A stretch of 64,000 nt of DNA from Flavivirga amylovorans (lineage in GTDB: Bacteria; Bacteroidota; Bacteroidia; Flavobacteriales; Flavobacteriaceae). Shown piece after piece: positions 20,404-43,472 of this stretch. The notes below the pieces were generated by a model that searched no databases, was not told the origin of the DNA, and worked only from the letters and a program-made list of their open reading frames with translations. The stretch spans positions 124,001-188,000 of the forward strand of contig NZ_JAUOEM010000003.1 of the NCBI RefSeq assembly GCF_030540875.1. Direction: 5' to 3'. The translations under genes were made by a program, and so were the position numbers. The first letter of the stretch is position 1. Each line of letters begins with the position of its first letter.

Positions 20404-20457
20404 AACCCGTTGTGCTATTAAGATTCTACTCTAACCTTAGTAGCACACCAACGGGTT
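20404..20457. repeat. Long inverted repeat
   Basis: Fourteen bases, AACCCGTTGTGCTA, pair with the right arm across a 3-nt bulge, enclosing a 23-nt loop. There is no trailing T run. It could be a dispersed palindrome or an RNA 3'-end stabiliser. Confidence 0.55.
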
Positions 20458-20470
20458 AATCGAAAAGAAT

Positions 20471-20551
20471 TCCTCGACGCTTTGCGTCGGGTTTCCGATG
20501 AAATTGTCATTCCCATGCCTGTGCTGAACAGGTTTCAGTAAAAATGGGAAT
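20471..20551. repeat. REP-like composite palindrome
   Basis: A CGACGC-TTT-GCGTCG hairpin is followed by nested arms ATTCCCAT/ATGGGAAT (20509-20516, 20544-20551) around CCTGT-GCTGA-ACAGG (20518-20532). The TTGTCATT entry at 20504 is shared with the element at 1235. This is typical of dispersed intergenic palindromes of flavobacterial genomes. Confidence 0.5.
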
Positions 20552-20603
20552 CTAAAGATGCAACCAACTTACAGAACAAATAAAATTAACGTAATACTAA
20601 TAC

Positions 20604-21986: not shown

Positions 21987-22019
21987 AACCTAATCGTAAA
22001 CAAGTGCTTTTAGGTTTTT
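21985..22019 (+). terminator. Intrinsic terminator after GH28
   Basis: The stem AAAACCTAA (21985-21993)/TTAGGTTTT (22010-22018) has a 16-nt loop and a short T run, and begins at the GH28 stop codon. Confidence 0.65.
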
Positions 22020-22069
22020 CTAGATCATTTAAATACTAATATTATTACTATAATTTAATACTTCATCAT

Positions 22070-23917: not shown

Positions 23918-24251
23918 GGTTTTGAAAATCAGGAAAATGAGCTAAGTGATTCTATAATTAGTTAAAAACATATTTGGCTGAATAATTCGTTAGTAACTAA
24001 ATAACTTACAAATCTTAAAAGTATAAACTTAAATACCAATAAAATATATTACTATTCAGCAAGATAGCTCAGAAATGTCTTCTTAATTTATTGTTTCATT
24101 TTATTTCATTTAGTTTCGATTTAATAAATAATTATTATATTTGAATTAAAATGTAAATAAAAATAATTATTTGTATAAAAATGGATCATATTAATAAATA
24201 ATAAAATTTATATGAATCAATCGTTTTTATCAAATCAAAAGTATTAAATCC
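23918..24251. other. Intergenic region upstream of the sulfatase
   Basis: This region contains the decamer repeat array and -7 box of the sulfatase (listed next). The first 170 nt show nothing recognisable. Confidence 0.7.
24094..24143 (+). promoter_or_regulatory. Sulfatase promoter with three 10-bp direct repeats
   Basis: Three consecutive decamers TTTCATTTTA, TTTCATTTAG and TTTCGATTTA (24094-24123) lie just upstream of the -7 box TATATTTG (24136-24143). The last repeat occupies the -33 position (18-nt spacer from its TTTC to the -7 box). The same repeat type precedes glpR and glpD, so the DeoR-family protein encoded at 25753-26505 probably binds here. Confidence 0.7.
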
Positions 24252-25739
24252 ATGTTTATGAAAGTCTTCATTCTACTATTGTTGTCTTTTTTAGGATTCT
24301 CATGTAATTCAAATGTAAAATCAAGTTCTAAAGAAGAGAAAAAAAAGCCTAATATTTTATTAATAGTGGTAGACGATCAAGGCTATGCAGATTTTTCGCC
24401 TTTTGAAAAGCATGATACCAGCGTTTCAACACCAAACATATCCCGTTTAGGGAAATCAGGGACTGTGTTTACCCAGGCTTATGTTACAGCACCAGTTTGT
24501 AGCCCGTCAAGAGCTGGAATATTAACGGGGAAAAATCAATTCAGATGGGATAAACCCGCAAGTTGGGGCCCTGGATTACCAGATAATATAAAAACCATTC
24601 CAGAGTATTTAAAAGAAGTTGGTTATGAAACTGCACGTATTGGTAAAAATGACCTGGGACGAAATTTTCATAAAAACAATGTTCGTGAATATCCATTAAA
24701 ACACGGATATGATGAGTTTTTAGGATTTAGTGCCCATGCCCATGATTATTGGTTGCATTCTAATGAAATTAAAGAGCGAACCCCGGATCCATATGGAACT
24801 AGTGCGCTTTTAGGACCACTGATGCATAATATGGGAGAGAAGAGTTATGATGAAGGCTATCTTACAGACATTTTAACAAATGAATCTATTGATTATATAA
24901 AAAGAAAAAGAGAAACCCCTTTTTTCTTGACCCTTTCTTATAATGCGGTGCATCATTTAATTCATGAAGTGCCAAAAAAGTATTTAGACAAATACAATGT
25001 TAGGGAAATCCCTAATTACGACCCAGATAGTTTATTGGCTTATGGTAAACATAAACCTGGAACATATTCTGCCTATTATGATAAATATTCTCGTGTTGGC
25101 GCTATTCAGCATAAAGATTTACGGAACTATTATTTGGCTAATCTTAATTGTTTAGACGATAATATAGGACGTGTTCTAGATGCTTTGAAAGAACACGGTC
25201 TTGATAAAAACACGGTTATAGTATTTATATCAGATAATGGTGGTTCTCCACTTACAGGCGCTAATAATTCGCCTTTAACAGGAGGTAAGTATTCCCTTTG
25301 GGAAGGTGGTATACGGGTGCCCATGTCTATAAGTTGGCCAAATAAAATAGAAACGGGTAAAGTTGAGACTCGTTATGTTTCGGCAACCGATATACTCCCA
25401 ACACTTGCAAATATAGCTGGAGTGGAAATTAATGATGATGCCATTGATGGTATCAACCTCTTAAAGCCAGAAGCAAATCGGTTATTGGTTTGGAAATGGC
25501 AAAAAACTTGGGCAGTAAGACAAGGTGATTGGAAATTAACTAATGCGAAGGAAAACCATTGGAAAAGTGAGCCGTCTTCACAGTATATTGCTCCAATAGT
25601 TGATAATATGGAATTAAAACTTTTCAATATAGCACAAGATCCTGGAGAACGTATGGATCTAGCTGAACAACATCCCGAAAAAGTAAAAACCCTAGAGGCT
25701 GCTTATAAAGATTGGATTGATAAGAATGTGAAAAAATAG
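24252..25739 (+). CDS. Type I (S1 family) sulfatase, lipoprotein
   Basis: This 495-residue sulfatase carries a lipobox (LGFSC, Cys18). The formylglycine signature CSPSRAGILTG (Cys83) is of the cysteine type and is matured by an anaerobic or FGE-type enzyme. The metal ligands are at VVDDQG (Asp41/42) and in the later SDNGG. It removes sulfate esters from a glycan. It lies between the uronate PUL and the glycerol operon, converges on glpR with 13 nt between them, and shares repeat operators with that regulator. The exact S1 subfamily and substrate are not decidable here. Confidence 0.92.
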   Translation: MFMKVFILLLLSFLGFSCNSNVKSSSKEEKKKPNILLIVVDDQGYADFSPFEKHDTSVSTPNISRLGKSGTVFTQAYVTAPVCSPSRAGILTGKNQFRWDKPASWGPGLPDNIKTIPEYLKEVGYETARIGKNDLGRNFHKNNVREYPLKHGYDEFLGFSAHAHDYWLHSNEIKERTPDPYGTSALLGPLMHNMGEKSYDEGYLTDILTNESIDYIKRKRETPFFLTLSYNAVHHLIHEVPKKYLDKYNVREIPNYDPDSLLAYGKHKPGTYSAYYDKYSRVGAIQHKDLRNYYLANLNCLDDNIGRVLDALKEHGLDKNTVIVFISDNGGSPLTGANNSPLTGGKYSLWEGGIRVPMSISWPNKIETGKVETRYVSATDILPTLANIAGVEINDDAIDGINLLKPEANRLLVWKWQKTWAVRQGDWKLTNAKENHWKSEPSSQYIAPIVDNMELKLFNIAQDPGERMDLAEQHPEKVKTLEAAYKDWIDKNVKK

Positions 25740-25752
25740 AGATAATATGACG

Positions 25753-26505
25753 TTAAATAATAGTGACTTCAACCCCTTTTTCTTCCAATTTTTTCTTGGT
25801 TAACGAAGATATTCCCTTATCGGTAATGATTTCATTTACAGCATCCAGATCACATATTTTTGCAAAACTTTTTTTACCAAATTTTGAAGAATCAGCTAAG
25901 ACAATTGTTCTTTGGGTCGATACTAGCATTTTCTGATTTAGTTGGGCTTCTTCTAAATTTGTGGTAGATAATCCATAATCTAAATCAATACCATCTACAC
26001 CTAAAAAAAGTTTACTACAAGAAACATTTTCCAAAATATGCGCAGCATAAGAACCTATTACAGAAGCAGAACTGTGACGTATATAACCTCCAAGTTGTAA
26101 AATTTCTATGTTTTTATCATGAATTAAATGCAAAACAGCATGTAAGGATGACGTGATAACGGTTAACTTGTTTTTTGGCTTTATAAATTTTGAAAGCGCT
26201 TGAATGGTAGTCCCCGATGCCATCATTATAGAATCATTTTCGTCAATACGTTTTGCAGCAGCTTGAGCAATGCCGTTTTTTTCTTCAACCGATATTTTTT
26301 CCTTTTCAATAACAGCCTTTTCATTTATATAAGGATTTTCTAAAGAGGCCCCGCCGTGTGTCCTAAAAAGTAAGCCTTTCTCTTCTAAGAGTTTTAAATC
26401 TTTTCTGATAGTAACAGCCGAAACATCTAGTTGTTTGCATAGATCTAAAACCTCAATATGTTTCTCTTTTGCTAATGTATTTAATATGATTTCATGTCTT
26501 TGCAT
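25753..26505 (-). CDS. glpR: DeoR-family transcriptional regulator (GlpR-like)
   Basis: The start is set at 26505 (250 residues). A longer frame from 26550 would contain the promoter, and the real protein begins MQRHEIILNTLAKEK, the usual DeoR start. The N-terminal helix-turn-helix is LCKQLDVSAVTIRKDLKLLEEKG followed by FRTHGGA. The C-terminal part is the DeoR sugar-phosphate sensor fold with LFLGVDGID and VLADSSKFGKKSF. It is divergent from glpD, so it is probably a glycerol-3-phosphate-responsive repressor of glpDKF, of itself, and of the sulfatase. The ligand is inferred from context. Confidence 0.88.
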   Translation of the reverse strand: MQRHEIILNTLAKEKHIEVLDLCKQLDVSAVTIRKDLKLLEEKGLLFRTHGGASLENPYINEKAVIEKEKISVEEKNGIAQAAAKRIDENDSIMMASGTTIQALSKFIKPKNKLTVITSSLHAVLHLIHDKNIEILQLGGYIRHSSASVIGSYAAHILENVSCSKLFLGVDGIDLDYGLSTTNLEEAQLNQKMLVSTQRTIVLADSSKFGKKSFAKICDLDAVNEIITDKGISSLTKKKLEEKGVEVTII

Positions 26506-26510
26506 AAGAA

Positions 26511-26540
26511 CAAATATAATGAAATGAAAGAAAATGAAGT
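26511..26540 (-). promoter_or_regulatory. glpR promoter with repeat operator
   Basis: On the minus strand, the TATATTTG -7 box (26511-26518) lies 5 nt before the start codon and is preceded by two TTCATTT(T/C) repeats 10 nt apart (26519-26540). The repeats resemble those at the sulfatase and glpD promoters and suggest autoregulation. Confidence 0.65.
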
Positions 26541-26579
26541 TAAATAGCACTTGTTTAACTTTTAAAAATAAAAATTATG

Positions 26580-26620
26580 TTTCATTTAGTTTCGTTTTAT
26601 TATTTTATTTAATACATTTG
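26580..26620 (+). promoter_or_regulatory. glpDKF promoter with repeat operator
   Basis: The decamers TTTCATTTAG (26580-26589) and TTTCGTTTTA (26590-26599) precede the -7 box TACATTTG (26613-26620). From the TTTCATTTAG repeat to the -7 box is 33 nt, against 32 nt at the sulfatase promoter. Confidence 0.7.
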
Positions 26621-26658
26621 AGATGAAATAAAATTAATCAAAACTAAAACAAATCGAT

Positions 26659-28221
26659 TTGTTTAATAGGAATACATTAATTAAGCAGTTAAAAGAGCAG
26701 CTTCAATGGGATGTCATCATCGTTGGAGGTGGTGCAACCGGTCTTGGAATTGCATTAGATAGTACATCTCGTGGCTATAAAACACTACTTTTAGAACAAG
26801 TAGATTTTGCAAAAGGAACATCGAGCCGAAGTACAAAATTAGTACATGGTGGCGTAAGATACTTGGCACAAGGAAATGTGGATCTGGTAAAAGAAGCGCT
26901 TTACGAAAGAGGATTAATGCTTAAAAATGCGTCTCATTTAGTGAGTAATCAGTCATTTATTATTCCGAATTACAAATGGTGGGATAACTTGTTTTATACT
27001 ATAGGATTAAAAATATATGATTTTTTAGCAGGAAAATTAAGTTTTGGGAAATCCATTAGAATCTCGAAAGAAGAGACCAAAACACGATTAGAAACCATAA
27101 AAGATGTAGATCTCAAAGGAGGTGTTGTATATCACGATGGTCAATTTGATGACTCAAGACTGGCCATAAATATAGCACAGAGTTCTATCGAATACGGCGC
27201 AACAGCTATAAACCACTTTAAAGTAGAGCAATTGTTAAAGGATGATGATGGTTCAGTAAACGGTTTAGTTGCCAGAGATGTAGAAACGAATTTAACTTAC
27301 AGGTTAAAAGCTAAAGTGGTTATTAACGCAACAGGTGTTTTTACAGATGAAGTCCTAAAAATGGATGACTCCACTGCTAAAAACAGAATTCGCCCTAGTC
27401 AAGGTGTGCATTTGGTCATAGACCAATCATTTTTGCCTGGAAAGGACGCAATTATGATTCCAAAGACAGATGATGGCAGGGTTTTGTTTTTAGTGCCTTG
27501 GCATAACAGAGTCGTAGTAGGTACTACAGATACCTTACTGGATAGTCATAGTTTAGAGCCAAAAGCACTAGATAAAGAAGTTGGTTTTATTTTATCAACC
27601 GCCAATAGGTATTTAACAAAAAAAGTCACTAAAGAAGATGTATTGAGCATATTTGCAGGGTTACGACCACTAGCAGCCCCAAAGCATAAATCGGAAAAAA
27701 CAAAAGAGATCTCCAGAAGTCATAAAATTATAGTATCAGACTCTGGTTTAATTACAATTACGGGTGGTAAATGGACCACGTATCGCCGCATGGCTCAGGA
27801 TACCTTGAATAAAGTGATTGAACTAGGTAAATTGCCCAATGCGACATGTAAAACTAAAAAATTGTTAATTCATGGAGCAAATGGCGTTGTAGACAAATCA
27901 GATCACTTGTATATTTATGGAACCGATAAAAAGGCTATTAAAGAACTCATTAAGGAATCCCCGGAATTAGGCGAAAAATTACATTCAAGATTAGAATTTT
28001 TAAAAGCGGAAGTGGTTTGGGCTATACGAAATGAAATGGCCAGAACGATTGAAGATATTTTGGCAAGACGTGTAAGAGTCTTGTTTTTAGATGCAAAAGC
28101 AGCTGTAGAAATTGCCCCTGTAGTAGCGAATCTATTAGCAAAAGAACTAAATAAAAATAAAGATTGGGAGCAAGAGCAAGTTTCTGATTTTACAAAAATA
28201 GCGAGTCATTACATCATTTAA
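26659..28221 (+). CDS. glpD: Glycerol-3-phosphate dehydrogenase (aerobic, FAD)
   Basis: GlpD oxidises sn-glycerol 3-phosphate to dihydroxyacetone phosphate and passes electrons to the quinone pool. The 520-residue protein has the FAD-binding VVGGGATGLGIALD segment near residue 20, then TSSRSTKLVHGGVRYL, and the family's GGKWTTYR motif near residue 372. No ATG is available upstream, so translation starts at the TTG at 26659, which gives the usual MFNRN-like beginning. It is the first gene of the glpD-glpK-glpF operon, divergent from glpR. Confidence 0.95.
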   Translation: MFNRNTLIKQLKEQLQWDVIIVGGGATGLGIALDSTSRGYKTLLLEQVDFAKGTSSRSTKLVHGGVRYLAQGNVDLVKEALYERGLMLKNASHLVSNQSFIIPNYKWWDNLFYTIGLKIYDFLAGKLSFGKSIRISKEETKTRLETIKDVDLKGGVVYHDGQFDDSRLAINIAQSSIEYGATAINHFKVEQLLKDDDGSVNGLVARDVETNLTYRLKAKVVINATGVFTDEVLKMDDSTAKNRIRPSQGVHLVIDQSFLPGKDAIMIPKTDDGRVLFLVPWHNRVVVGTTDTLLDSHSLEPKALDKEVGFILSTANRYLTKKVTKEDVLSIFAGLRPLAAPKHKSEKTKEISRSHKIIVSDSGLITITGGKWTTYRRMAQDTLNKVIELGKLPNATCKTKKLLIHGANGVVDKSDHLYIYGTDKKAIKELIKESPELGEKLHSRLEFLKAEVVWAIRNEMARTIEDILARRVRVLFLDAKAAVEIAPVVANLLAKELNKNKDWEQEQVSDFTKIASHYII

Positions 28222-29775
<1,554 letters not shown>

Positions 29776-29903
29776 TATCAATGTTAAGTCCAGACTTATA
29801 AAGTCATATTAAAACTAAAAAAACACAAATTTAAACGAGTATCAAGTCTCAATTGAAAATAACAAATCATTCGTATATCAATAATTGTAAATCTTAAATA
29901 GAA

Positions 29904-30632
29904 ATGACACCATTTATTGCAGAAATTATAGGAACAGCCATACTTATTTTATTAGGAGGTGGTGTTGTAGCGAATGTGGTATTAAAGAAAACCATAGGTA
30001 ATAATAGCGGTTGGATCGTTATAACTACAGGTTGGGCTTTAGCAGTTTATGTGGCAGTTGTTATTGCAGGACCTTATAGCGGTGCTCACATCAATCCAGC
30101 AGTTAGTATCAGTTTGGCAGTAGCTGGTAAATTCCCTTGGGAATCTTTACCATTATATGTTTTAGCACAAATGATTGGGGCTATGTTAGGAGCATCAATA
30201 GTTTGGCTATTCTATAAAAACCATTTTGATGTAACGGATGATGCCGATGCAAAAAAAGCAGTATTCTGTACAGCACCAGCCATAAAACACTCATTTTCTA
30301 ATTTTTTTAGTGAAGTAGTAGGTACCTTCGTACTCATATTTACTATTTTGTATTTTACTAATGCCACAATAAACGATACAGATACCATTATTGGTTTGGG
30401 GTCTCTAGGCGCATTGCCAGTTGCTTTCTTGGTATGGTCTATTGGTTTATCACTAGGAGGAACAACGGGATATGCGATAAATCCAGCCCGTGATCTAGGA
30501 CCAAGAATTGTACATGCTCTACTGCCAATTAAAAACAAAGCATCCAATGATTGGGGCTATGCCTGGATTCCCGTTTTAGGCCCTATAATTGGAGGAATGT
30601 TGGCAGCATTACTTATGCTGGCACTTTCTTAA
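29904..30632 (+). CDS. glpF: Glycerol facilitator (aquaglyceroporin)
   Basis: This 242-residue MIP channel has six predicted membrane helices and both pore motifs, GAHINPAV and YAINPARDLGPR. The Asp directly after the second NPAR is characteristic of glycerol-conducting aquaglyceroporins rather than water-only aquaporins. It brings glycerol into the cytoplasm for GlpK. It cannot move phosphorylated glycerol, which bears on the proposed need for a periplasmic phosphatase in the next locus. Confidence 0.95.
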   Translation: MTPFIAEIIGTAILILLGGGVVANVVLKKTIGNNSGWIVITTGWALAVYVAVVIAGPYSGAHINPAVSISLAVAGKFPWESLPLYVLAQMIGAMLGASIVWLFYKNHFDVTDDADAKKAVFCTAPAIKHSFSNFFSEVVGTFVLIFTILYFTNATINDTDTIIGLGSLGALPVAFLVWSIGLSLGGTTGYAINPARDLGPRIVHALLPIKNKASNDWGYAWIPVLGPIIGGMLAALLMLALS

Positions 30633-30741
30633 GGTTAAAAAAATGTTTCTTTAAGAGAAGTAACACGTGTCATTTTGTATATTCATTTTCTAGAAGTACT
30701 TTTATAAAGTGATCCTGTTATAGCATAAATTTTTACTAAAA

Positions 30742-33510
30742 TTGAAAACCTTACTGTTTGTTTTTCTAACACTGTTTAGCCTGATATCTTTTGGTCAGGA
30801 GTTACCGCCTATTGAAAAATTTACTACAGAAAGCTACAAGGGGGATAACCAAAACTGGATGATTTCACAGAGTGCCAACAATTATATTTACGTAGCCAAT
30901 AATAAAGGCTTACTGGAATACAATGGTGCTGAATGGACATTATATGCTTCGCCTAACAATACCATTATACGAGCGGTGAACGTTATTGGTAACAAAGTTT
31001 ATACAGGATGTTACGCAGAGTTTGGCTATTGGATAAAAAATAAATTTGGCACTTTAAAATATAGCTCCTTAAGATCCAAACTTGACAAAAACATGTTGGA
31101 GGATGAACAGATCTGGAATATCATCGATTACAATGAATGGGTTATTTTTCAATCTAACTCCAAAATTTATTTTTACAATACAGAAACCGAAAGCTTTAAA
31201 ATAATTCCAGCTACAAATACCATTTATAAAATTTTCAAAGTAAACAAACGGATCTATTATCACGTAGCAGATAAAGGTATTTATGTTATTGGAAGTGGTC
31301 AACCAAAATTAGTCATTGACAATCCTATTGTTAAATCTGAGCGGGTCATCAATATATTTGAAAATGGCGAACATCTCATCATCCTTACCCGAAATTCTGG
31401 ATTTTACAAGTTTTTAAACGGTAAAATACAAGCATGGAAAATACCTGCGGACACGTTTCTAAAAGGAACCAATGTGTTTAGCAGTATTCAGCTTGAAGAT
31501 GGCAGTTTTATTATGGGAACAATTTCTCATGGTATCCTACATTTAAATGAAGGTGGAGATATTGAATATCAAATTACTCAAAAAAACGGATTAAGTAATA
31601 ACACGGTCTTATCCTTATTTGAAGATGAAGCTAATAATGTTTGGGTTGGTCTGGATAATGGTATTAATTGTATTAATGTTACATCGGCCATAAAAACATT
31701 TTTTGATTATGAAGGTGTTCTAGGGACGGTTTATACGACACAGGTTTTTAAAAATATCTTGTACATAGGCTCTAATCAAGGATTGTTTTATAGGAAACGA
31801 CATGCGGTAAATGAACCTTTTAAGTTTATCGAAGGTACCGCAGGTCAAGTATGGGATTTGTTCAATTATAATGATGAATATTTGTTTTGTGGTCATCATT
31901 TAGGAACCTTTTTAATTGATGAAAATAAAGCCAGTAAAATAAGTGGCGAATTGGGTGCTTGGACATTTAAACAAATTCCAAAGAAAGAAAATTTGTTACT
32001 ACAAGGGAATTATAATGGGCTATTTGTTTTAGAGAAACATAATGGATCTTGGAAGATCAAGAATAAAATTGAAGGTTTTAAAAATTCATCCAGATATCTT
32101 GAAATTAATGATGCGAATCAAGTATGGGTAAGTCATGAATACAAAGGCGTTTTTAAATTAAAGTTAAATGATAGTTTAACAAAAGTTTTAAAACTGGATA
32201 TGGAAACGAGTTTGCCTTTAGGAAAAAAATCAAGTTTAAATAAATATAAGAATGAGATCCTTTATGCTTCAGAAGAAGGTATCTTTAAATATAATGAATC
32301 AGATAAAGGATTTCAAAGAGATTCAGTTTTAAGCAAAACTATTAAAAATAGTGAATACATTTCTGGTAAACTGGTTGTAGATAAGAATGAAAAACTTTGG
32401 ACATTTTCAAAAGACAATATAAGTTATATAGAAAACGACGATGTCACTAATAAACCAGTTATTCATGATATTCCAATTCCATCAAAATTAAGAAAAGGTG
32501 TTTTAGGATATGAAAACATTTCACTTACCAGCAAAAACACCTATGTTTTAGGCACAGCAAATGGGTATATAACGCTGGACCTATCAAAAATAAACAAGAT
32601 AAAAGATTATTCAATTCATCTAAACTCAGTCGCTTTACAAAATAAGGATGAAGAGATAAAAGAATATGCCGTTAGCGATGAAAGTGAATTTAATTATAAA
32701 GCAGGCATATTGCTATTTAAGTATTCGGTTCCAGAATATGATAATTATTTAGAAGTAAAATATCAGTACAAACTACAAGGGCATTTGAATAAATGGAGTA
32801 AATGGACTGAAAATACTCAAGTTACTTTTGAAAATTTGTCTTTTGGAGATTATATTTTTAATGTTAGAGCAAAGGTTGGTAATAAATTATCAAAAAACAC
32901 ACTGTCTTATAGTTTTATTGTACAAAGACCATGGTACATTTCTAATACAGCTTTAATTTTTTACGTATTAGTGCTTTTAATAATTATTTTAATTACCCAT
33001 AAAGCTTATAAACGTTTTTATGTAAAAAAGTTTGCTCGTGAACAAATGGAGAATAAACAAGTCATTATGCAAATTAAAAACGAAAAATTAAATCAAGATA
33101 TAGATAATAAAAATAGGGAGTTGGCAATTTCTACGATGAGTATTATTAAAAAGAATAGACTTTTAAATAAAATTAAAAAAGAGCTCAAAAAGAATAAAGA
33201 TGCAGATAATAATGTAGCCCTTAAATTAATTGAGAGTAACTTAAATGATGCCAAAGATTGGTCTTTTTTCGAACAAGCATTTAATAATGCAGATAAAGAT
33301 TTTTTGGATAAGATAAAAAAAAGACATCTAGATTTAACACCTAATGATTTACGTTTTTGTGCCTATTTACGCTTAAACTTATCTTCAAAAGAAATGGCAC
33401 CATTGCTAAATATATCTGTTAAAAGTGTTGAAACAAAGCGTTACAGATTGCGTAAGAAATTAGGTTTAGAACATGACAGCGGACTTGTTAACTATATCTT
33501 AAAGTTTTAG
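30742..33510 (+). CDS. Beta-propeller/Y_Y_Y sensor with C-terminal LuxR-type HTH
   Basis: This 922-residue membrane-spanning one-component regulator has a signal peptide (SLISFGQ) followed by a two-component-regulator-type beta-propeller with GLLEYNG- and GLFVLEK-like blades. A Y_Y_Y domain lies at about residues 650-730, a transmembrane helix at about 737-755, a coiled coil after it, and a C-terminal HTH with NLSSKEMAPLLNISVKSVETK. Translation must use the TTG at 30742. Such proteins sense oligosaccharides in the periplasm and activate adjacent susCD genes. It stands directly before the second SusC. Confidence 0.92.
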   Translation: MKTLLFVFLTLFSLISFGQELPPIEKFTTESYKGDNQNWMISQSANNYIYVANNKGLLEYNGAEWTLYASPNNTIIRAVNVIGNKVYTGCYAEFGYWIKNKFGTLKYSSLRSKLDKNMLEDEQIWNIIDYNEWVIFQSNSKIYFYNTETESFKIIPATNTIYKIFKVNKRIYYHVADKGIYVIGSGQPKLVIDNPIVKSERVINIFENGEHLIILTRNSGFYKFLNGKIQAWKIPADTFLKGTNVFSSIQLEDGSFIMGTISHGILHLNEGGDIEYQITQKNGLSNNTVLSLFEDEANNVWVGLDNGINCINVTSAIKTFFDYEGVLGTVYTTQVFKNILYIGSNQGLFYRKRHAVNEPFKFIEGTAGQVWDLFNYNDEYLFCGHHLGTFLIDENKASKISGELGAWTFKQIPKKENLLLQGNYNGLFVLEKHNGSWKIKNKIEGFKNSSRYLEINDANQVWVSHEYKGVFKLKLNDSLTKVLKLDMETSLPLGKKSSLNKYKNEILYASEEGIFKYNESDKGFQRDSVLSKTIKNSEYISGKLVVDKNEKLWTFSKDNISYIENDDVTNKPVIHDIPIPSKLRKGVLGYENISLTSKNTYVLGTANGYITLDLSKINKIKDYSIHLNSVALQNKDEEIKEYAVSDESEFNYKAGILLFKYSVPEYDNYLEVKYQYKLQGHLNKWSKWTENTQVTFENLSFGDYIFNVRAKVGNKLSKNTLSYSFIVQRPWYISNTALIFYVLVLLIIILITHKAYKRFYVKKFAREQMENKQVIMQIKNEKLNQDIDNKNRELAISTMSIIKKNRLLNKIKKELKKNKDADNNVALKLIESNLNDAKDWSFFEQAFNNADKDFLDKIKKRHLDLTPNDLRFCAYLRLNLSSKEMAPLLNISVKSVETKRYRLRKKLGLEHDSGLVNYILKF

Positions 33511-33773
33511 AAACACGACACACCCTCTTTTTACCACGACATTACCACTACAAACATGTTAATCCTAATGTTTTAAAGGGTTGACAAGTGATTTTTTTTG
33601 ATTTTTAACTTTCTAGTGTTTACAAGGTTTTTTAGTCGATAATTGAAATAGTTTCTTCTTTTTAAATACGATGTTCGTTTTTTATCGGCGTAAAAATTAT
33701 CAATTTCTCAGAGTTAGAGGTTAAGTTTACAAATACTTAATTCGAATTATTACCCAAAAATTAAATCAAGCTA

Positions 33774-33781
33774 TAATTTTG
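33774..33781 (+). promoter_or_regulatory. -7 box for the second susC
   Basis: TAATTTTG matches TAnnTTTG, 23 nt before the ATG at 33805. The intergenic region (33511-33804) also has a CACGACA...CCACGACATTACCAC stretch near 33515-33553 that might be a target of the preceding regulator. Confidence 0.5.
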
Positions 33782-33804
33782 AAACTAAACTAAATAACAC
33801 ACGT

Positions 33805-36800: not shown

Positions 36801-36882
36801 TATTAGAAGCACCTTTTCTAATGCAGATACAGGTTATCCAGATGCGAGAGCATTTACTTTTGGAATAAGAGTTAAATTTTAA
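33805..36882 (+). CDS. SusC-like TonB-dependent receptor
   Basis: This 1025-residue outer-membrane receptor has a signal peptide ending near LGALAQS, a carboxypeptidase-regulatory-like domain (about 30-110, GTVLSAADNMSLPGATVIV), a plug with VVGYGTQRKSDIVNAV and ASAQAIYGSRGANGVV, and a barrel ending in FTFGIRVKF. It has no STN domain, so control is through the preceding LuxR-type sensor rather than a sigma factor. It pairs with the SusD 18 nt downstream. The substrate is inferred from the downstream GH16 and GH3 to be a beta-glucan. Confidence 0.95.
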   Translation: MKLKLCYQKIKVLFLSLLLFTSLGALAQSQKTVTGTVLSAADNMSLPGATVIVKGTTNGTSTDFDGKFSLSVDSSGTTLVISYIGYVTKEVAITTGPMSILLEADQNILDEIVVVGYGTQRKSDIVNAVATTDMKKAILSPTSDVNEMLRGRIAGLQVDVGGGTLRPGGTSEILFRGRGSIEGNVSAIYVVDGIIRDGGIEDIDPDDIDSIEFLKDASAQAIYGSRGANGVVLITTKRGKSGKVSVSYHGFITTKSIERNFDVYNGQEFAQLRREAFRSTNADDMYLDDADVFSELELESIADNRFVDWENELLRNGFVNSQAMSISGGTDVTKVFGSINYFKEDGLIPTSSYTRKTLRLNIDQKISDKFSINFDLNLLNDDTERAANVNVITTSPLGRAFNDDGSITRFPSGEEDTAVNPLWNLREQDHDEKGNDYVINVTPIWQITKDLQYQLKTNLTRRTSERGQYLSSLSSAGDDVRGIARIDNRLEESYLLENILTYDKVLNDNNKFNVTLVQSAQEIQTSRTFTEGQGFTNEDLGYNGITSAINNVFVERDVNRRRYLGYMARARYSLFDRYMLEGTMRADGASVNGEDNKWLYNPAGSFAWKIHNESFLEDVSAIQELKFRASYGSLANDLGRPYTSLFTADPQPYIFDSESASGFSPSTTLPNPGLKSERITTLNFGLDFSLFNRLLIGNINWYDARTNDLLLRRGVPSITGFTDTFFNAGEMQNSGLEIGLTANIINTEDFRWSVSTNWSNNRNKILELYNDGDGIAITEDNTFNYYVDQPVGVIYQYDFDGIWQEGDDFANAPQANPDSAFPQADLRPGDIRVRDTNGVDDDGNMTGVPDGKITQEDRVFKDPNPDWFGSLSTTLAYKGFDLFVDFYAVEGATKRNPFLSDFNNGGTLSGKLNGVKVPYYTPENPSTTFPRANFDVAPLYLNALAIKDASYIRLRTVSLGYTLSDKVISKLNFDQIRLYATATNVFTNTDYIGYSPEVNIRSTFSNADTGYPDARAFTFGIRVKF

Positions 36883-36900
36883 ATTTAAAAAAATAATATT

Positions 36901-38511
36901 ATGAAAGCGAAGTTTTTTTATTCAAAACTAAAAGGAGACTTATTGGTATGCATAGCGTTATTTTTCGTTGTGGTTTCTTGTGAAAATTACTTAGATGAGC
37001 AACCTAGTACATTAATTGACTCAGATTATATATTTACAACTGAAGAAGGCTTAAAATCTGGCGTAGTTAGCTTATACAAGTTTGACAGAGATAGATATGA
37101 CCGAAGAATAGAAGATTTTATGGGAGCGGTTTTAATGTCATCTAGAAGTGATTTGGCATTCAGTAGAACAGGTTATACAGGCTTAATGGGCAGATATCAA
37201 AGAGGTGTTTCCCCTGTAGATCAAGGTGCAAATTTTGTGTCTACTTTATTCTGGAAACATTTTTATAACATCACAAATAAAGCGACCGAAATCATAAATG
37301 CGGCAGAGGTTATAGAAGGTGTAGATGACGATACTAGAAATCAAATTATAGCAGAAGCGAAATTTTTTAGAGCTAACTCTTATTTCTATTTATATAGAAT
37401 GTTTAATAACATTTATGTAACTACTAAAACTGTAACTGTAGATAATGCATTTGATGTTATTAATGATAAATCCTCTAAAGAAGACATTTTTGCACTTTTA
37501 AACAGTGATTTAGATTTTGCGATTGAGCATTTAGAATGGACCGATACGTTTGGTCGTGTTACAAAAGGAACTGCAAAACATGTAAAAGCAAAAGTAGCCA
37601 TGTGGGAAGGTGATTGGGAAGAAGCTAAAAGTCAAGCTTTAGATGTTATAGAAGATCCAGATAGCCCTCACGGTTTAGTAGCCAATACAGGAGATGTTTT
37701 TAAAGGCGATAGAAACCATTCAGAATCATTATTTGTGATACAGTCTCAGGATGACTTATTAGGTGGCGGTGATAACACCATGATGAATGCTAATTATGTA
37801 ACACAATATTTTCAAATATCTGGCATAGAATCAAATATAGAACAAGGTGGGAGAGGCTTTTCTCGTGTATTACCAAACCTGTATTTGTTGGGTTTAATTT
37901 CTGAAGACCCCAATGACACTAGAGACGATGATACCTATTTCAGATTGAAATATTATTATACTTCAGGACCCAGAATTGGAGAAGAAGTAGATAACTATGC
38001 ACCAATTACAGATCTTAATAATCCCAGTAGTACCTATCAAAGGTATTATCAAAGACAACATCCTTCCTGTATAAAATTTGCCCAGGAGGATGACAATCCC
38101 GATTCGTATTTAAATAGAAGTAATATTATGGTATACAGACTCGCAGAGACTTATTTAATTGCTGCAGAAGCTATGATGCGGTCTACAGGCGATCCGCTAC
38201 CATACATAAATGCAGTAAGAACCAGAGCAAATGCAGCACCATTAACAAGTGTAGATGAGCAGGCTATTTTAGATGAACGTGCTCGTGAACTTGCTTTTGA
38301 AGGACAGCGATGGTTTACTTTAAAAAGAATGGGGCAAGCCGTTATAGACAGACAAATTACTAGTTACGCAGGTGATGGTGAATACTTCCCTGCTAATCTA
38401 GGTGTGAAAGACCCAAGAACCAATTGGCAACCACATTTTATTAATTTTCCTATTGCTCAAATAGATTTAGATTTATTAGGTGCAGGTTATCCACAAAATG
38501 ATGGGTACTAA
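36901..38511 (+). CDS. SusD/RagB-family lipoprotein
   Basis: This 536-residue surface glycan-binding lipoprotein has the lipobox VVSC followed by ENYLDEQPST, a typical SusD start. SusD signatures include NQIIAEAKFFRANSYFYLYRMF, YRLAETYLIAAEAM, ILDERARELAFEGQRW and the terminal YPQNDGY. It forms the transporter lid with the SusC encoded 18 nt upstream. A hairpin terminator follows, so the downstream enzymes may be expressed at a lower level. Confidence 0.95.
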   Translation: MKAKFFYSKLKGDLLVCIALFFVVVSCENYLDEQPSTLIDSDYIFTTEEGLKSGVVSLYKFDRDRYDRRIEDFMGAVLMSSRSDLAFSRTGYTGLMGRYQRGVSPVDQGANFVSTLFWKHFYNITNKATEIINAAEVIEGVDDDTRNQIIAEAKFFRANSYFYLYRMFNNIYVTTKTVTVDNAFDVINDKSSKEDIFALLNSDLDFAIEHLEWTDTFGRVTKGTAKHVKAKVAMWEGDWEEAKSQALDVIEDPDSPHGLVANTGDVFKGDRNHSESLFVIQSQDDLLGGGDNTMMNANYVTQYFQISGIESNIEQGGRGFSRVLPNLYLLGLISEDPNDTRDDDTYFRLKYYYTSGPRIGEEVDNYAPITDLNNPSSTYQRYYQRQHPSCIKFAQEDDNPDSYLNRSNIMVYRLAETYLIAAEAMMRSTGDPLPYINAVRTRANAAPLTSVDEQAILDERARELAFEGQRWFTLKRMGQAVIDRQITSYAGDGEYFPANLGVKDPRTNWQPHFINFPIAQIDLDLLGAGYPQNDGY

Positions 38512-38559
38512 TCTTAAGAATAGTTAGAGTTTTTTTAAATTGAGTTAGTTTGTTTTTTT

Positions 38560-38592
38560 AATCTAAGGGCAATATTATTGCTCTTAGATTTT
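38560..38592 (+). terminator. Hairpin terminator between susD and the GDPD-GH16 gene
   Basis: The arms AATCTAAGGGCAAT (38560-38573) and ATTGCTCTTAGATT (38577-38590) form a 14-bp stem with one mismatch and a 3-nt loop, ending in TTTT. It probably gives partial termination between transporter and enzyme genes. Confidence 0.75.
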
Positions 38593-38688
38593 AATAGTAT
38601 TTGGTAAATTATTGTGAATAATATTTAGGAGTGGATCCGTCATCCTATGTTTGTATAAAATTAGTTTTTAATAATAGTTCCCAGGTTT

Positions 38689-40269
38689 ATGATAAAAAGT
38701 ATGCGATATTTGTTTTTATTGACTGTTCTTACAGCTTCAATCGCTTGCAATAGTAATTCTAATAAAAATGAAATCAACTTTGCAGACAATGTGGTTATTG
38801 CTCATCGTGGTGCATGGAAACAAAAAAATCTTCCACAAAATTCTATAGCGTCTTTAAAACAAGCCATAGCCCTAAATTGTACAGGGTCTGAGTTTGATAT
38901 TAGAATGACTTCAGATAATGTACTTGTTGTAACACACGATAGAGATTATCACGGACTGGTTGTTGAAGCGTCAACATATAACGAATTGTCAAAATACAAG
39001 CTTTCAAACGGAGAAGCTCTCCCCACTTTAAAACAATATTTACTGGCAGGCATGCAAAATAATAGCACTACTGGTTTTGTATGTGAAATTAAACCTTCAA
39101 AAATCGAAGGCCGAAACAGTATGATTGCTAACAACGTATTAAGTTTAATAAAAGAACTAAAAGCAGAACCTTATATTTTATCATACATTAGTTTTAGTTA
39201 TGATATCTTAAAAAAGATTAAAGTGTTAGATTCCGAGGCTAAAACACAATATTTAGATGGTTCAAAAAAACCTGATTGCTTAAAAAATGATGGTATTTCC
39301 GGGTTGGATTATTTGGTTTACAAATACAAAAAACACCCCGAGTGGATTGAAGGTGCTAAAGAAAATGGGGTATTATTAAATGCCTGGGTAGCTAATAAAA
39401 CTGAAGATTTGGATTGGCTTTTGGCTAACGATTTCGATTATATTACTACAGATGAACCTGAATTGCTTTTTGAAAGAATAAAAAAGAGCCCTACCTATGA
39501 TGGTTACAAATTGGTTTGGAGCGATGAATTTAATTATCAAGGAAGGCCGGATAGTACAAAATGGGCTTTTGAATATGGTTTAAAAAGAAATCAAGAAAAA
39601 CAGTATTACGTTGATAGCTTAAAGAATGCTAGAGTAGAAAAAGGGTTACTGGTTTTAGAAACCCATAAAGAAACCATTAAAAACGAAGCCTTTGTTTCTA
39701 AAGATGCTAAAGGTTGGAAAAAGAATTGGGAATATGCAAATTATACGGCACCTAGCCTGACCACTAAAGGCATAGCCGAATGGACCTACGGACGTATCGA
39801 AATAAGAGCACAATTACCAAAGGGTGTTGGCTTATGGCCAGCATTTTGGATGATTGGCGCAAATTATGATGAAGTAAGGTGGCCGGAATGTGGCGAAATT
39901 GATATTATGGAACACGTTGGTTTTAATCCCGATTCTATCTTTGGAACCATTCATACAAAAGCTTATAATCACATGAAAGGCACAGAAAAGGGAAAGAAGA
40001 TATTCATCGATAAACCTTACGATTCTTTTCACGTATTCGCATTGGAATGGACACCCGAAAAAATGGACTTTATATTAGATGATACGGTCTATAATCATAT
40101 AGAAAACGAACATAAAACAACACACGAATGGCCATTTGATCAAGACTTTCATTTGAAGATAAATATCGCCGTGGGAGGTATGCTTGGTGGACAAAAAGGA
40201 ATTGATGATACTGTTTTTCCGCAGCAAATGCTCATAGATTACGTTAGGGTTTTTCAAAAAAAAGAATAA
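38689..40269 (+). CDS. Lipoprotein fusing a GDPD domain to a GH16 beta-glucanase
   Basis: This 526-residue lipoprotein (Cys20) has two catalytic domains. Residues 34-265 form a glycerophosphodiester phosphodiesterase: AHRG (His39, Arg40), PQN where most have PEN (Gln50, Asn51), EFD (Glu68, Asp70), THD (His83) and EIKP (Glu133). Residues about 272-525 form a GH16 laminarinase-type domain with WPAFWMIG and GEIDIMEHVG (Glu403, Asp405, Glu408). There is no long linker. The enzyme may cut both glycerophosphate substituents and beta-1,3-glucan backbones. It is first in a tight three-gene unit, with the next start 4 nt after its stop. Confidence 0.92.
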   Translation: MIKSMRYLFLLTVLTASIACNSNSNKNEINFADNVVIAHRGAWKQKNLPQNSIASLKQAIALNCTGSEFDIRMTSDNVLVVTHDRDYHGLVVEASTYNELSKYKLSNGEALPTLKQYLLAGMQNNSTTGFVCEIKPSKIEGRNSMIANNVLSLIKELKAEPYILSYISFSYDILKKIKVLDSEAKTQYLDGSKKPDCLKNDGISGLDYLVYKYKKHPEWIEGAKENGVLLNAWVANKTEDLDWLLANDFDYITTDEPELLFERIKKSPTYDGYKLVWSDEFNYQGRPDSTKWAFEYGLKRNQEKQYYVDSLKNARVEKGLLVLETHKETIKNEAFVSKDAKGWKKNWEYANYTAPSLTTKGIAEWTYGRIEIRAQLPKGVGLWPAFWMIGANYDEVRWPECGEIDIMEHVGFNPDSIFGTIHTKAYNHMKGTEKGKKIFIDKPYDSFHVFALEWTPEKMDFILDDTVYNHIENEHKTTHEWPFDQDFHLKINIAVGGMLGGQKGIDDTVFPQQMLIDYVRVFQKKE

Positions 40270-40273
40270 ATAC

Positions 40274-41140
40274 ATGACATATTATTCAGTAGTACTATTG
40301 GTGTTAAGCTTAGTTTTTACAAGTTGTAAAAGTGAAAACAAGAACCCAGACAATAATAAAAGTCAAAACCTGAGTGTAATGACTTATAACATTAGGTTAG
40401 ATGTAGCTTCAGATGGCGACAATGCATGGCCAAATAGAAGCCATTTTTTAAGTTCACAAGTACAATTCTATAGTCCAGATATTATGGGCGTTCAAGAAGC
40501 ACGACCCAATCAAATGGATGATTTAAAAGCAGCTTTAAAAGATTATGATGTTATTGGAACAGGAAGAGATGGTGGTAATAAAGGGGAGTTTTCAGCCATT
40601 TTTTACAATTCAAAAAAAGTAAAAGTTGAACAAGAAAATACCTTTTGGCTATCAAAAACACCAAACAAAATGTCTATGGGTTGGGATGCTGCATATCCAA
40701 GAATTTGTACTTACGGACTCTTTACATTACTTGAAAGCAATCAAAAGATATGGGTGTTTAATACGCATTTAGATCATGTTGGAGCGGAAGCGCAATTAGA
40801 AGGGATGGCGTTAATTCTCAAAAAAATAATAGCTTTAAATACTGCTAATCTTCCCGTAATTGTTATGGGCGATTTCAATGTAGAGCCGGATAGTCAGTTA
40901 ATTGAGAGTCTTAAGCAAAACATGAATGATTCAAAAGATATAGCGAAAATTGTTTTTGGTTCTAACGGAACGTTTAACGGTTTTAAGTTTGAAGAACCAG
41001 TGACTAGAAGAATTGATTATATCATGCTTTCTAAATCTAATCATATAGAAGTTGAAAAATATGGTGTTTTATCGAGTTCAATAGATTTAAAATATCCTTC
41101 AGATCATTTTCCTGTGTATATAGAATTAATCTTAAAGTAA
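40274..41140 (+). CDS. EEP-family phosphatase/phosphodiesterase, lipoprotein
   Basis: This 288-residue lipoprotein (lipobox FTSC, Cys18) has the endonuclease/exonuclease/phosphatase fold. All core motifs are present: MTYNIRLD, GVQEARP (metal Glu), NTHLDHVG, MGDFNVEPDS (Asp/Asn), RRIDYIM and PSDHFPVY (catalytic His pair partner). Members cleave phosphoesters of sugars, inositols, lipids or nucleic acids. The export signal and context make a nuclease less likely. Packed between GDPD-GH16 and GH3 (4-nt gaps on each side), it could dephosphorylate the glycerol phosphate that the GDPD domain releases. Confidence 0.88.
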   Translation: MTYYSVVLLVLSLVFTSCKSENKNPDNNKSQNLSVMTYNIRLDVASDGDNAWPNRSHFLSSQVQFYSPDIMGVQEARPNQMDDLKAALKDYDVIGTGRDGGNKGEFSAIFYNSKKVKVEQENTFWLSKTPNKMSMGWDAAYPRICTYGLFTLLESNQKIWVFNTHLDHVGAEAQLEGMALILKKIIALNTANLPVIVMGDFNVEPDSQLIESLKQNMNDSKDIAKIVFGSNGTFNGFKFEEPVTRRIDYIMLSKSNHIEVEKYGVLSSSIDLKYPSDHFPVYIELILK

Positions 41141-41144
41141 ATCC

Positions 41145-43472
41145 ATGTCAAAACAAATATCAGTTATAGCTTTAACGTTCGGTTTCATTTTTCTTATAAT
41201 TATTTTTGGTTGTGATAATAAAGCAAGTGAAACGACTCAAAATAGCAAATCAAATTTCAATAATAACATCGAAAGGAAAGTAGATTCTGTTTTAGGATTA
41301 ATGCATCTTAATGAAAAGATTGGACAACTGGTTCAATACAGTGGTAAATGGAATGCCACAGGCCCTTCATCTTCAAAAAACGATCAGCATAAATTAAACA
41401 AACTTAAAAAAGGCGAAGTCGGTTCTATGTTAAATGTTGTCTCAGTAGCTTCCGTTCGTGAGACCCAAAGAATAGTTATGGAGCATTCCCGTTTAAAAAT
41501 TCCATTAATTTTCGGGTATGATGTCATTCATGGATATAAAACGATGTTCCCTATTCCATTGGGAGAAACTGCGAGCTGGGATTTAGATATCATTAAAGCA
41601 TCTGCAGCAATAGCAGCTAAAGAATCAGCCGCTTCGGGTGTTAATTGGACTTTTGCTCCCATGATAGATGTATCAAGAGATGCACGTTGGGGAAGAGTTA
41701 TGGAAGGCGCTGGCGAAGACCCGTATCTAAACACGGTTGTAGGCGTGGCTCGTATAAAAGGATTTCAAGGTGATGATTTATCACAAACCAATACCATTGC
41801 AGCATGCGCAAAACATTTTGCGGGGTATGGTTTTGCCGAAGCAGGACGTGATTATAATACGGTAAATATTGGCGAGTACGAATTGCATAATACTATTTTG
41901 CCCCCTTTTAAGGCTGCTGCAAAAGCTGGTGTAGCTACTTTTATGAATGCCTTTAATGATATTGATGGTATTCCTGCAACAGGACATAAAGTGCTGCAAC
42001 GTGACATTTTAAAAAGAGAATGGGATTGGAATGGATTTGTCGTTTCAGATTGGGGTTCCATTGGTGAAATGATTGCTCATGGTTACGCTGAAGATAAAAG
42101 ACATGCTACTGAAATTGCTATGAATGCAGGGAGCGATATGGATATGGAATCCTATGCTTATGAAGCACATTTAGAGTCTTTACTCAAAGAAAATAAAGTG
42201 ACAATACATCAAATTGACGATGCAGTGAAGCGTGTACTGCGTTTAAAATTTCAACTAGGGCTTTTTGATGACCCTTTTAAATATTGCAATGAACAACGTG
42301 AAATGGATCATGTTTACACAGAAGAACATTTAGCAATATCTCGTGAGGTGGCAAAAAAATCAATAGTATTACTTAAAAACGAAAACAAATTATTGCCAAT
42401 TTCAAAAGACGTTAAAAGTATCGCTGTTATAGGGTCGTTAGCCCATGATAAAGATTCTCCACTTGGTAACTGGAGGGCGAAAGCAACATATAACTCAGCA
42501 GTATCATTATTAGAAGGCGTTAAAAACGCCATTGGAGAAAACACGAAAATACATTATGCAAAAGGTGTAGATCTAACCATACCGACATTAGAAGCCGGTG
42601 CTAACCAATTTTTATATCCTTTAAAATTTAATACTACAGATGATTCCGGAATAGCAGAAGCTGTAGAAGTTGCAAAAAAATCAGAAGTCGTATTATTGGC
42701 GATAGGAGAGAATGCATACCAAACAGGAGAGGGACGAAGCCAAACGAATATTGGTTTTTTAGGACTTCAAAACGACTTGTTAGAAGCCATTTATAAAGTG
42801 AATAAAAATATTGTTGTTGTTTTGATGAATGGACGACCTATGGCGCTTAGTAGAGTTTCTGAAATCACACCAGCTATATTAGAATGCTGGCATTTAGGGT
42901 CCGAATCTGGAAATGCCATTGCAGATGTGCTTTTTGGTGATTATAATCCGTCAGGAAAACTCCCAGTATCGTTTCCTCATCATGTAGGTCAGGAACCATT
43001 ATACTACAATCAGAAAAATACAGGACGTCCGTATAGTAATAAACACGTTACTTTTTCGAGCTATAGAGATGCACCTAAATCAGCATTATACCCTTTTGGT
43101 TTTGGGTTGAGTTATACGGTATTTAAATATGATAATTTGAATTTTGATAAAACCGAAATAGACAGAAATGGTCGTATTAAAGTATCTGTTGAGGTTTCAA
43201 ATAAAGGAGATAGAGATGGAGAAGAAGTTGTTCAATTGTACATTCGAGATTTAGTTGGTAGTTTGGTTAGACCTATTAAAGAACTTAAAGGATTTGAGAA
43301 AATAATGTTGAAATCAGGGGAAACAAAAACCGTATCGTTTACGATAGATGCTAAAATACTTCAGTTTTATACCGCAAGTAAAAAATGGGAAGTAGAGCCT
43401 GGTGATTTTGAAATTTTTGTAGGAGGTAATTCTAAAACAACTTTAAAATCTAGAATAACAGTTATTGAGTAA
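41145..43472 (+). CDS. GH3 beta-glucosidase, lipoprotein
   Basis: This 775-residue GH3 enzyme has lipobox IFGC (Cys23). The TIM-barrel domain includes FGYDVIHGYKTMFPIPLG and the catalytic nucleophile in GFVVSDWGS (about residue 304). The alpha/beta-sandwich domain has GENAYQTGEGRSQT, and a C-terminal fibronectin III-like domain follows the YPFGFGLSYT motif. The layout is that of BglX-type periplasmic beta-glucosidases, which release glucose from short beta-glucans. It closes the operon, and a GH16 plus GH3 pair matches laminarin-type glucan breakdown. Confidence 0.95.
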   Translation: MSKQISVIALTFGFIFLIIIFGCDNKASETTQNSKSNFNNNIERKVDSVLGLMHLNEKIGQLVQYSGKWNATGPSSSKNDQHKLNKLKKGEVGSMLNVVSVASVRETQRIVMEHSRLKIPLIFGYDVIHGYKTMFPIPLGETASWDLDIIKASAAIAAKESAASGVNWTFAPMIDVSRDARWGRVMEGAGEDPYLNTVVGVARIKGFQGDDLSQTNTIAACAKHFAGYGFAEAGRDYNTVNIGEYELHNTILPPFKAAAKAGVATFMNAFNDIDGIPATGHKVLQRDILKREWDWNGFVVSDWGSIGEMIAHGYAEDKRHATEIAMNAGSDMDMESYAYEAHLESLLKENKVTIHQIDDAVKRVLRLKFQLGLFDDPFKYCNEQREMDHVYTEEHLAISREVAKKSIVLLKNENKLLPISKDVKSIAVIGSLAHDKDSPLGNWRAKATYNSAVSLLEGVKNAIGENTKIHYAKGVDLTIPTLEAGANQFLYPLKFNTTDDSGIAEAVEVAKKSEVVLLAIGENAYQTGEGRSQTNIGFLGLQNDLLEAIYKVNKNIVVVLMNGRPMALSRVSEITPAILECWHLGSESGNAIADVLFGDYNPSGKLPVSFPHHVGQEPLYYNQKNTGRPYSNKHVTFSSYRDAPKSALYPFGFGLSYTVFKYDNLNFDKTEIDRNGRIKVSVEVSNKGDRDGEEVVQLYIRDLVGSLVRPIKELKGFEKIMLKSGETKTVSFTIDAKILQFYTASKKWEVEPGDFEIFVGGNSKTTLKSRITVIE

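Follow-up and report, generated by a model that had tools for sequence, protein, structure and literature searches.

A GDPD-GH16 polysaccharide utilisation locus joined to glycerol catabolism genes on accessory DNA of Flavivirga amylovorans

The window analysed here is a stretch of 64,000 nt from the forward strand of the Flavobacteriaceae member Flavivirga amylovorans (GCF_030540875.1, NZ_JAUOEM010000003.1:124,001-188,000), whose genome measures 4.86 Mb. Between positions 24094 and 43472 it carries a polysaccharide utilisation locus (PUL) organised around a protein in which a GDPD domain is fused to a GH16 glycoside hydrolase, together with glpD, glpK and glpF for glycerol catabolism, a DeoR-family regulator and a sulfatase-family gene. 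Judged from sequence comparison, this unit and its link to glycerol have good support. Pfam and NCBIfam profiles, used for all family assignments, bear out the gene list and coordinates of a preliminary description of this DNA, and its borders, 24252-43472, coincide with the limits of the unit kept in the same order in three other genomes (G209, G134 and G244; G labels denote genomes and L labels mapped loci). The genes named there are all present; the sulfatase and deoR, which lie inside those borders, had gone unmentioned. The features are as follows.

24094-24111, plus strand: operator-like site without mismatches, lying before the sulfatase; the window and the genome each have two exact matches, of which this is one
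24252-25739, plus strand: S1-type sulfatase-family enzyme with a CSPSR (formylglycine) motif and GKNDLG replacing GKWHLG
25753-26505, minus strand: DeoR-family regulator; the listed open reading frame (ORF) extends to 26550, and the start MQRHE at 26505 was chosen from homologues
26522-26597: divergent operator-like pair in the deoR-glpD gap (26522-26539, minus strand, 1 mismatch; 26580-26597, plus strand, 0 mismatches)
26659-28221, plus strand: glpD, FAD glycerol-3-phosphate dehydrogenase (best NCBIfam match PRK12266, 294 bits, under the cut-off of 360)
28279-29775, plus strand: glpK, glycerol kinase, exceeding the NCBIfam GlpK cut-off
29904-30632, plus strand: glpF, aquaglyceroporin of the MIP family with both NPA boxes and RD after the second
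30742-33510, plus strand: propeller and Y_Y_Y membrane sensor-regulator with a C-terminal LuxR-like helix-turn-helix (HTH, by eye)
33805-36882, plus strand: SusC-type TonB-dependent transporter (Pfam/NCBIfam)
36901-38511, plus strand: SusD-type lipoprotein (profile and lipobox pattern)
38689-40269, plus strand: GDPD-GH16 fusion (GDPD at residues ~39-258, GH16 at ~273-524)
40274-41140, plus strand: exported EEP-family phosphatase/phosphodiesterase with a lipobox-like signal peptide
41145-43472, plus strand: GH3 beta-glucosidase of BglX type, above the BglX cut-off, with a lipobox-like signal peptide

The adjacent susC-susD pair and the co-located glycan-active enzymes and sensor regulator (GH16, GH3, the sulfatase and the Y_Y_Y sensor) are those expected of a PUL, and the combination of a laminarinase-type GH16 with a GH3 beta-glucosidase is that of laminarin PULs. 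Relatives of the sensor adjoin susC in related loci. The homologues that guided the choice of the deoR start begin with MKRHQ, to which MQRHE corresponds in the window. SusD, EEP and GH3 fit a simple lipobox pattern; in the fusion and the sulfatase a Cys ends the hydrophobic leader, yet falls outside the pattern used. The genome has a single copy of glpK, the next match being only 28% identical. As to importers of glycerol phosphate, the genome gave MFS-family matches only, with no search aimed at a GlpT-type importer.

The predicted active sites look intact. In the GDPD half, the metal and acid/base positions align with those of 2pz0 and 3no3 (HRG, EFD, HD, EIK), including the two His and the acidic metal ligands that characterise the family, and HRG, SEFD, HD and E[IL]K are all present in 41 of 41 related GDPD rows, some of which are repeat loci of one genome. 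The GH16 half carries the motif GEIDIMEH. The EEP protein contains QE, HLDH, GDFN and SDH, the motifs of its family, and its nearest structures are 3mpr and 4c1r, the latter named a mannosyl-6-phosphatase (E 1e-50). The fusion aligns end to end, over residues 30-524, with PDB entries 7wwc and 7ww4. The part of PMC12448869 available to us lists these as a Pedobacter terrae 'beta-1,3(4)-glucanase' crystallised with laminarin, says that they have no accompanying publication, and elsewhere gives the code 7wwc to a xylanase as well, an apparent slip.

The coupling of this PUL to glycerol catabolism, asserted in the preliminary description, holds up when other genomes are compared. That description named the absence of glpDKF beside the GDPD-GH16/EEP/GH3 unit in related genomes as grounds for rejecting its reading, and this is not what we observed. 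We searched 397 Flavobacteriaceae genomes, F. amylovorans included, with the fusion protein and with GlpK and mapped the neighbourhoods. The fusion search was limited to three scored candidates in each genome, and the counts that follow refer to the genomes among the matches listed. The GDPD type (GDPD half at least 50% identical) occurs in 25 genomes, as a full fusion in 14 and without a fused GH16 in 11. Linkage, defined as a GlpK within 20 kb, is seen in 11 of the 25, namely in eight of the 14 with fusions and in three of the 11 others (G157, G133 and G225). Random placement in a 4 Mb genome would give linkage in ~1% of genomes; that 11 of the 19 genomes bearing a GlpK at E<=1e-150 are linked has a binomial probability (p=0.01) of 7e-18, a figure that ignores kinship. 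A scan of named genomes gave 29 loci, of which 11 align with almost the entire fusion, and a GlpK lies in the fetched stretch of seven of these 11 (the Flaviramulus multivorans locus, L078, very likely belongs to the same genome as G070). The background of GlpK comprises 183 matches in 178 genomes, from which the best-listed 60 were fetched with some rows skipped, leaving the low-identity tail unsampled. The linkage also differs within genera: G133 and G322 both have the PUL, as do G134 and G323, and glp is linked in one member of each pair only. The linked member has a close GlpK (91% and 88%, respectively) and the other a distant one encoded elsewhere (61%; E 6e-177).

Three arrangements were found. 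In arrangement A, deoR and glpDKF lie upstream of sensor-susCD-fusion-EEP-GH3 (the window, G209, G134, G119 and G244); G125 is a variant without GH3 and G314 one without sensor or GH3. In arrangement B, glpDKF lies downstream within the PUL operon (Flaviramulus, two Mariniflexile species, a Flavobacterium metagenome-assembled genome (MAG) and G133), and no deoR was present in the stretches seen. Arrangement C is that of G225, glpK-glpF-GDPD-GH16 without SusCD. Gelidibacter, Polaribacter and Lacinutrix have glpK-glpF upstream, as in A, where their stretches start. Spacing is operon-like, with 40 bp between GH3 and glpD in Flaviramulus, 11 bp between an esterase gene and glpD in G133, and 12 bp both between glpF and GDPD and between GDPD and GH16 in G225.

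A single inherited glp-PUL gene order is disfavoured by these three arrangements and by the GDPD tree (40 rows), on which 10 changes of the linked label are required, with seven or more of them forced by well-supported branches; each change may be a gain or a loss. Arrangements mix in this tree: the window (A) groups with Flaviramulus and M. gromovii (both B) and with the unlinked G323 (support 88/84), and G134 (A) groups with the Flavobacterium MAG (B; support 99/89). The tree leaves out L078 and L079 (repeats), G143b and G269b (fragments) and G289 and G317 (stretches not fetched), labels G047, L081 and L082 'no glp' even though a contig end is close by in each, and treats G373 and G094, which have no GH16, as linked. 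The GlpK tree comprises 25 of the 60 fetched GlpK loci, the window and 11 others, the linked loci L083, L084, L085 and L095 being absent. Of the 13 linked GlpKs in it, 12 share a supported clade with seven unlinked ones (19 members in all), and supported branches force only three changes. Since the GlpK of G225 lies outside this clade, its position suggests that linkage arose separately there.

A second line of evidence comes from the sequence TTTCRTTTNNTTTCRTTT, which is conserved in the deoR-glpD gap in an alignment of eight loci. It has two exact matches in the window, one ahead of the sulfatase (24094) and one ahead of glpD (26580), whereas none of 100 shuffles had any; the whole genome contains no others. 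At up to one mismatch the genome has 18 matches vs. 13 for a reversed control, so only exact matches carry weight. Exact sites precede both glpD and the sulfatase in G125; in G209 the glpD site is exact and the sulfatase site has one mismatch, and in G134 the sulfatase site is exact and the glpD site has more than one. No sulfatase site was found in G244 at up to one mismatch, and in G157 deoR is followed by the sulfatase. No site with one mismatch or fewer adjoins the unit in five arrangement-B stretches (L077, L078, L085, L098 and L116), three of which hold this type of sulfatase inside the PUL operon with glp. Matches with one mismatch also occur downstream of the unit in G133 and, in G153 and G335, before the gene in SusD position. 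From this sequence context we assign the sulfatase to the glycerol-linked system, whose putative operator it appears to share. Membership of the upstream uronic-acid PUL (10044-23917) was considered and rejected, because the gene carries the glp operator-like site and because its relatives from other genomes adjoin deoR or sit inside the GDPD PUL.

The sulfatase is closest to an exo-kappa-carrageenan S1 sulfatase. Its CSPSR, an instance of the S1 signature CxPSR, is found in every one of the 13 related rows, which represent 12 genomes because L078 repeats G070, and the same rows share GKNDLG where 6prm has GKWHLG; the Lys of that S1 motif is thus retained and the His replaced. The sulfatase-family enzyme probably has an altered specificity, and a non-sulfate ester is a possible target.

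The unit belongs to accessory DNA, as synteny with congeners stops just after mnmE (9908) in all four that were mapped. The fusion protein is absent at E<=1e-60 from 11 of 11 congeners, and a close GlpK is likewise absent from all 11, five of which have a GlpK at 53-54% identity. Yet all 11 genes of the unit recur in unchanged order in G209, a member of another genus, at 70-92% identity. Each of the four congeners has different genes after mnmE, and the region 9908-61504 of the window looks like an integration hot spot.

Gene content, intact active-site motifs, a linkage that recurs in rearranged form and the common operator-like site are what sequence and comparison provide as a basis for interpretation. 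We read 24094-43472 as a PUL variant, on accessory DNA, for a glycerophosphodiester-bearing, possibly sulfated, glycan of beta-glucan type, and we give this reading about an even chance of being right. GDPD-family enzymes convert a diester to glycerol-3-phosphate and a free hydroxyl. In the proposed route, SusC and SusD would bind and import the glycan, the GH16 half of the fusion would cut its backbone and GH3 would free glucose, and the GDPD half would cut the phosphodiester to leave glycerol-3-phosphate and a free sugar hydroxyl. EEP would then strip the phosphate outside the cytoplasm and so fill a gap, because GlpF passes glycerol and not glycerol phosphate. GlpF would import the glycerol, which GlpK and GlpD would channel to glycolysis. 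The DeoR regulator may govern the glycerol genes and the sulfatase jointly, and the Y_Y_Y/HTH sensor the SusCD operon. The substrate, the order of the steps, the action of EEP on glycerol phosphate and the control by two regulators are what we infer from this set of genes.

The glycan part of such PULs varies: GH2 is an addition in some relatives, and G133 and G322 have further genes of GH31, GDSL and SASA type. The Pfam names were verified for G133 alone, where UxuA is present as well. The GH2 gene upstream of the unit in the window (22070) is ~50% identical to GH2s inside some GDPD PULs. We kept it out of the unit; its nearest structures are a beta-galactosidase/glucuronidase and a galacturonidase, and it sits with polysaccharide lyase and GH28 genes.

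Several findings weigh against a glycerophosphorylated beta-glucan as the substrate. Of the 25 genomes among the matches listed, 14 have no glpK within 20 kb. Eight of these have GlpK elsewhere, among them G047, whose PUL adjoins a contig break, and the other six are without any GlpK at E<=1e-150, which means that glp is not a necessary companion of the PUL. Outside the family, seven of seven mapped fusion loci (G544, G761, G575, G472, G524, L081 and L082) are without glp; L081 and L082 are cut by contig ends, and the fusion has both SusCD and EEP as neighbours in G544 and L082 alone. Nor is the beta-glucan part constant, because the glp-linked, A-type unit of G157 has GDPD and EEP without GH16 or GH3. 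When labels on the GDPD tree were shuffled, the mean was 13.6 changes and 14 to 19 of 500 shuffles were as low as observed; the linked label is modestly clustered, and repeated loss of an old glp-PUL linkage is possible. No operator-like site was found before susC or the sensor gene in the window, so that the sites give no sign of one regulator over both halves. EEP resembles a sugar-6-phosphatase. As to the glycan itself, E. coli-type periplasmic glucans have beta-1,2 linkages, which GH16 is to our knowledge not known to cleave, and we know of no marine polymer with all of these features.

The alternative that survives best, to which we allow a minor though real chance, is the scavenging of two substrates: GH16 and GH3 would cut laminarin, and GDPD, EEP and the sulfatase would act on lipid head groups or small glycerol esters from the same algal cells, the glycerol being used and the glucan carrying no glycerol phosphate. 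Deacylated phospholipids are the usual substrates of GDPD-family enzymes. Several loci have GDPD and GH16 as separate genes, G157 retains GDPD and EEP without GH16, the crystallised fusion is listed with laminarin, and Pus loci of Flavobacterium scavenge phosphodiesters with SusCD, according to the part of PMC8115612 available. Against this stand the retention of the fusion in 14 family genomes among the matches listed and its presence in other families; a glycan-type SusCD would moreover be needless for small glycerol esters. We think it unlikely that the substrate is an oomycete-type phosphorylated beta-1,3-glucan, with phosphate mono- or diesters on glucose, on which EEP would act as a sugar-6-phosphatase and alongside which the glycerol genes would be carried for another need. 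Phosphorylated mycolaminarins are known, the EEP is near the mannosyl-6-phosphatase 4c1r and some PULs have no linked glp, but the linkage where present is repeated, rearranged and operon-tight, and parallel loci join glp, GDPD and SusC without GH16. It is quite improbable that glpDKF and the PUL are travelling companions only because both lie in a variable region, with no substrate in common. Most of the window is indeed accessory, as the early end of congener synteny indicates, and the main GlpK clade has seven unlinked members of 19; however, the three arrangements, the probable independent origin in G225, the presence of glp in the PUL operon of G133 and not of its genus mate G322, and an operator-like site common to glp and the sulfatase speak against hitch-hiking. 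Very improbable, finally, is a bacterial glycerophosphate polymer of teichoic-acid-like or bifidobacterial type, with GH16 and GH3 (in relatives also GH2 and GH31) acting on its sugars: teichoic acid is degraded by GDPDs of the GlpQ type, and a bifidobacterial lipoglycan with beta-glucan and galactofuranan carries glycerophosphate, but the carrageenan-sulfatase-like sequence of the sulfatase and hosts such as the marine Mariniflexile, Formosa, Polaribacter and Lacinutrix fit algal or sulfated glycans better.

The glycerophosphodiester-bearing beta-glucan reading, which we prefer, draws on parts that are individually known. Laminarin PULs of Flavobacteriia hold GH16, GH3 and often GH17 or GH30 with SusCD. 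Set beside these (PMC11345257, of which a part was available), the unit shares SusCD, the laminarinase-type GH16 and GH3, and differs in having no GH17 or GH30 and in adding a GDPD fused to GH16, EEP, the sulfatase and glp. The fusion is the same two-domain protein as that of 7wwc/7ww4; the mapped fusion loci from outside the family are without glp. The EEP phosphatase 4c1r belongs to a yeast alpha-mannan PUL. The window EEP is its kin, at the E-value given above, and differs in following directly after GDPD and in travelling with glycerol genes. Pus loci of Flavobacterium combine a SusCD-type pair with exported phosphodiesterases and phosphomonoesterases, are induced by phosphate depletion and have no CAZy enzymes, as far as the available part of PMC8115612 goes. 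The unit likewise has SusCD adjoining such exported enzymes (here GDPD and EEP), whereas GH16, GH3, the sulfatase and a route for glycerol carbon set it apart. In F. johnsoniae, PafA allows growth on sugar phosphates, and phosphoglycerol is unusable as a carbon source, according to the accessible part of PMC8812569; both systems would employ an exported phosphatase to liberate a carbon moiety that is then eaten, and only the unit carries the glycerol route. The preliminary description knew of no described PUL of this kind. On the combination with glycerol catabolism we likewise found no paper in the open-access literature (which leaves out most subscription journals and bioRxiv). SusCD with exported phosphodiesterases are known from Pus loci, GH16 and GH3 with SusCD from laminarin PULs and the fused enzyme from the PDB, and what appears new is the joining to glycerol catabolism.

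The underlying logic of SusC, GDPD, an exported phosphatase and glpDKF, put forward in the preliminary description, recurs in loci with an unrelated phosphatase. In G373, G336 and G257, glpDKF adjoins SusCD, a calcineurin-like phosphoesterase and a GDPD (of generic type in G257), and a GH97 is also part of the G336 locus; in G094, glp genes stand together with SusC, GDPD and a phosphoesterase similar by eye. These parallel loci employ another phosphatase family for the same glycerol-phosphate gap. Four mapped loci (L130, L140, L166 and L167) hold SusC/SusD-like genes, calcineurin-like phosphoesterases, GDPD and glpDKF without GH16, one of them with GH97. Possibly they represent a wider class of glycerophospho-glycan loci. 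ORF calls in all locus maps are plain longest-ORF picks, which in L140 took an antisense ORF over glpK and in G209 placed the glpD start too far upstream. As a tentative extension, which we hold with more doubt than confidence, Flavobacteriaceae may possess a class of 'glycerophosphoglycan utilisation loci', composed of SusCD, GDPD, an exported phosphatase and glpDKF with swappable glycan modules (GH16/GH3, GH2/GH31/esterases, GH97 or none), which would target a widespread, undescribed and probably marine glycerophosphodiester glycan; in the lineage of the window, a sulfate-like ester would in addition be removed by the altered sulfatase under the glycerol regulator.

Another common glp context (L122, L125, L126, L127, L129, L131, L133-L139 and others) has mevalonate-pathway-like and TspO-like genes, followed by glpK-glpF and then by an FAD oxidoreductase, a generic GDPD and genes resembling maltose/GH65 ones; apart from glp and GDPD, the names were given by eye. 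A block of this context in G225 encloses the PUL-type GDPD and GH16, and versions of the block without glpK hold GH16 in G129 and GDPD in G080. Locus L119 (1-13700; contig C5 of G047) has SASA-type esterase-like and PhoD-like genes (by eye), then, after 16 bp, glpD, glpK, glpF and pieces of GH3; contig C5 may hold what is missing from the PUL cut off at the end of contig C12 of the same genome. Within the window, 10044-23917 is a separate PUL with a FecR regulator, SusCD, a polysaccharide lyase, GH88, GH28 and a uronidase-type GH2, pointing to a uronic-acid or pectin-like target. Downstream of the unit, 44283-46625 encodes a 780-aa TolC-type outer membrane protein whose first ~330 residues have no Pfam match and which is followed by HlyD and AcrB genes, and 52884-54710 encodes a 608-aa protein with pyruvate-kinase barrel matches (best 353-570) that adjoins an adenylate/guanylate cyclase-like gene.

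If the reading as a glycerophosphodiester-bearing glycan is correct, the locus would report the make-up of a polymer not yet seen: a sugar of beta-glucan type, a glycerol phosphodiester and a sulfate-like ester. Bacteroidota would then use glycerol phosphate through the joint work of an exported phosphatase and a glycerol channel, and the turnover of carbon and of phosphorus would be joined in one uptake system. The unit also supplies tools for finding such a polymer, in the form of the two-domain enzyme, the phosphatase, the unusual sulfatase and the operator.

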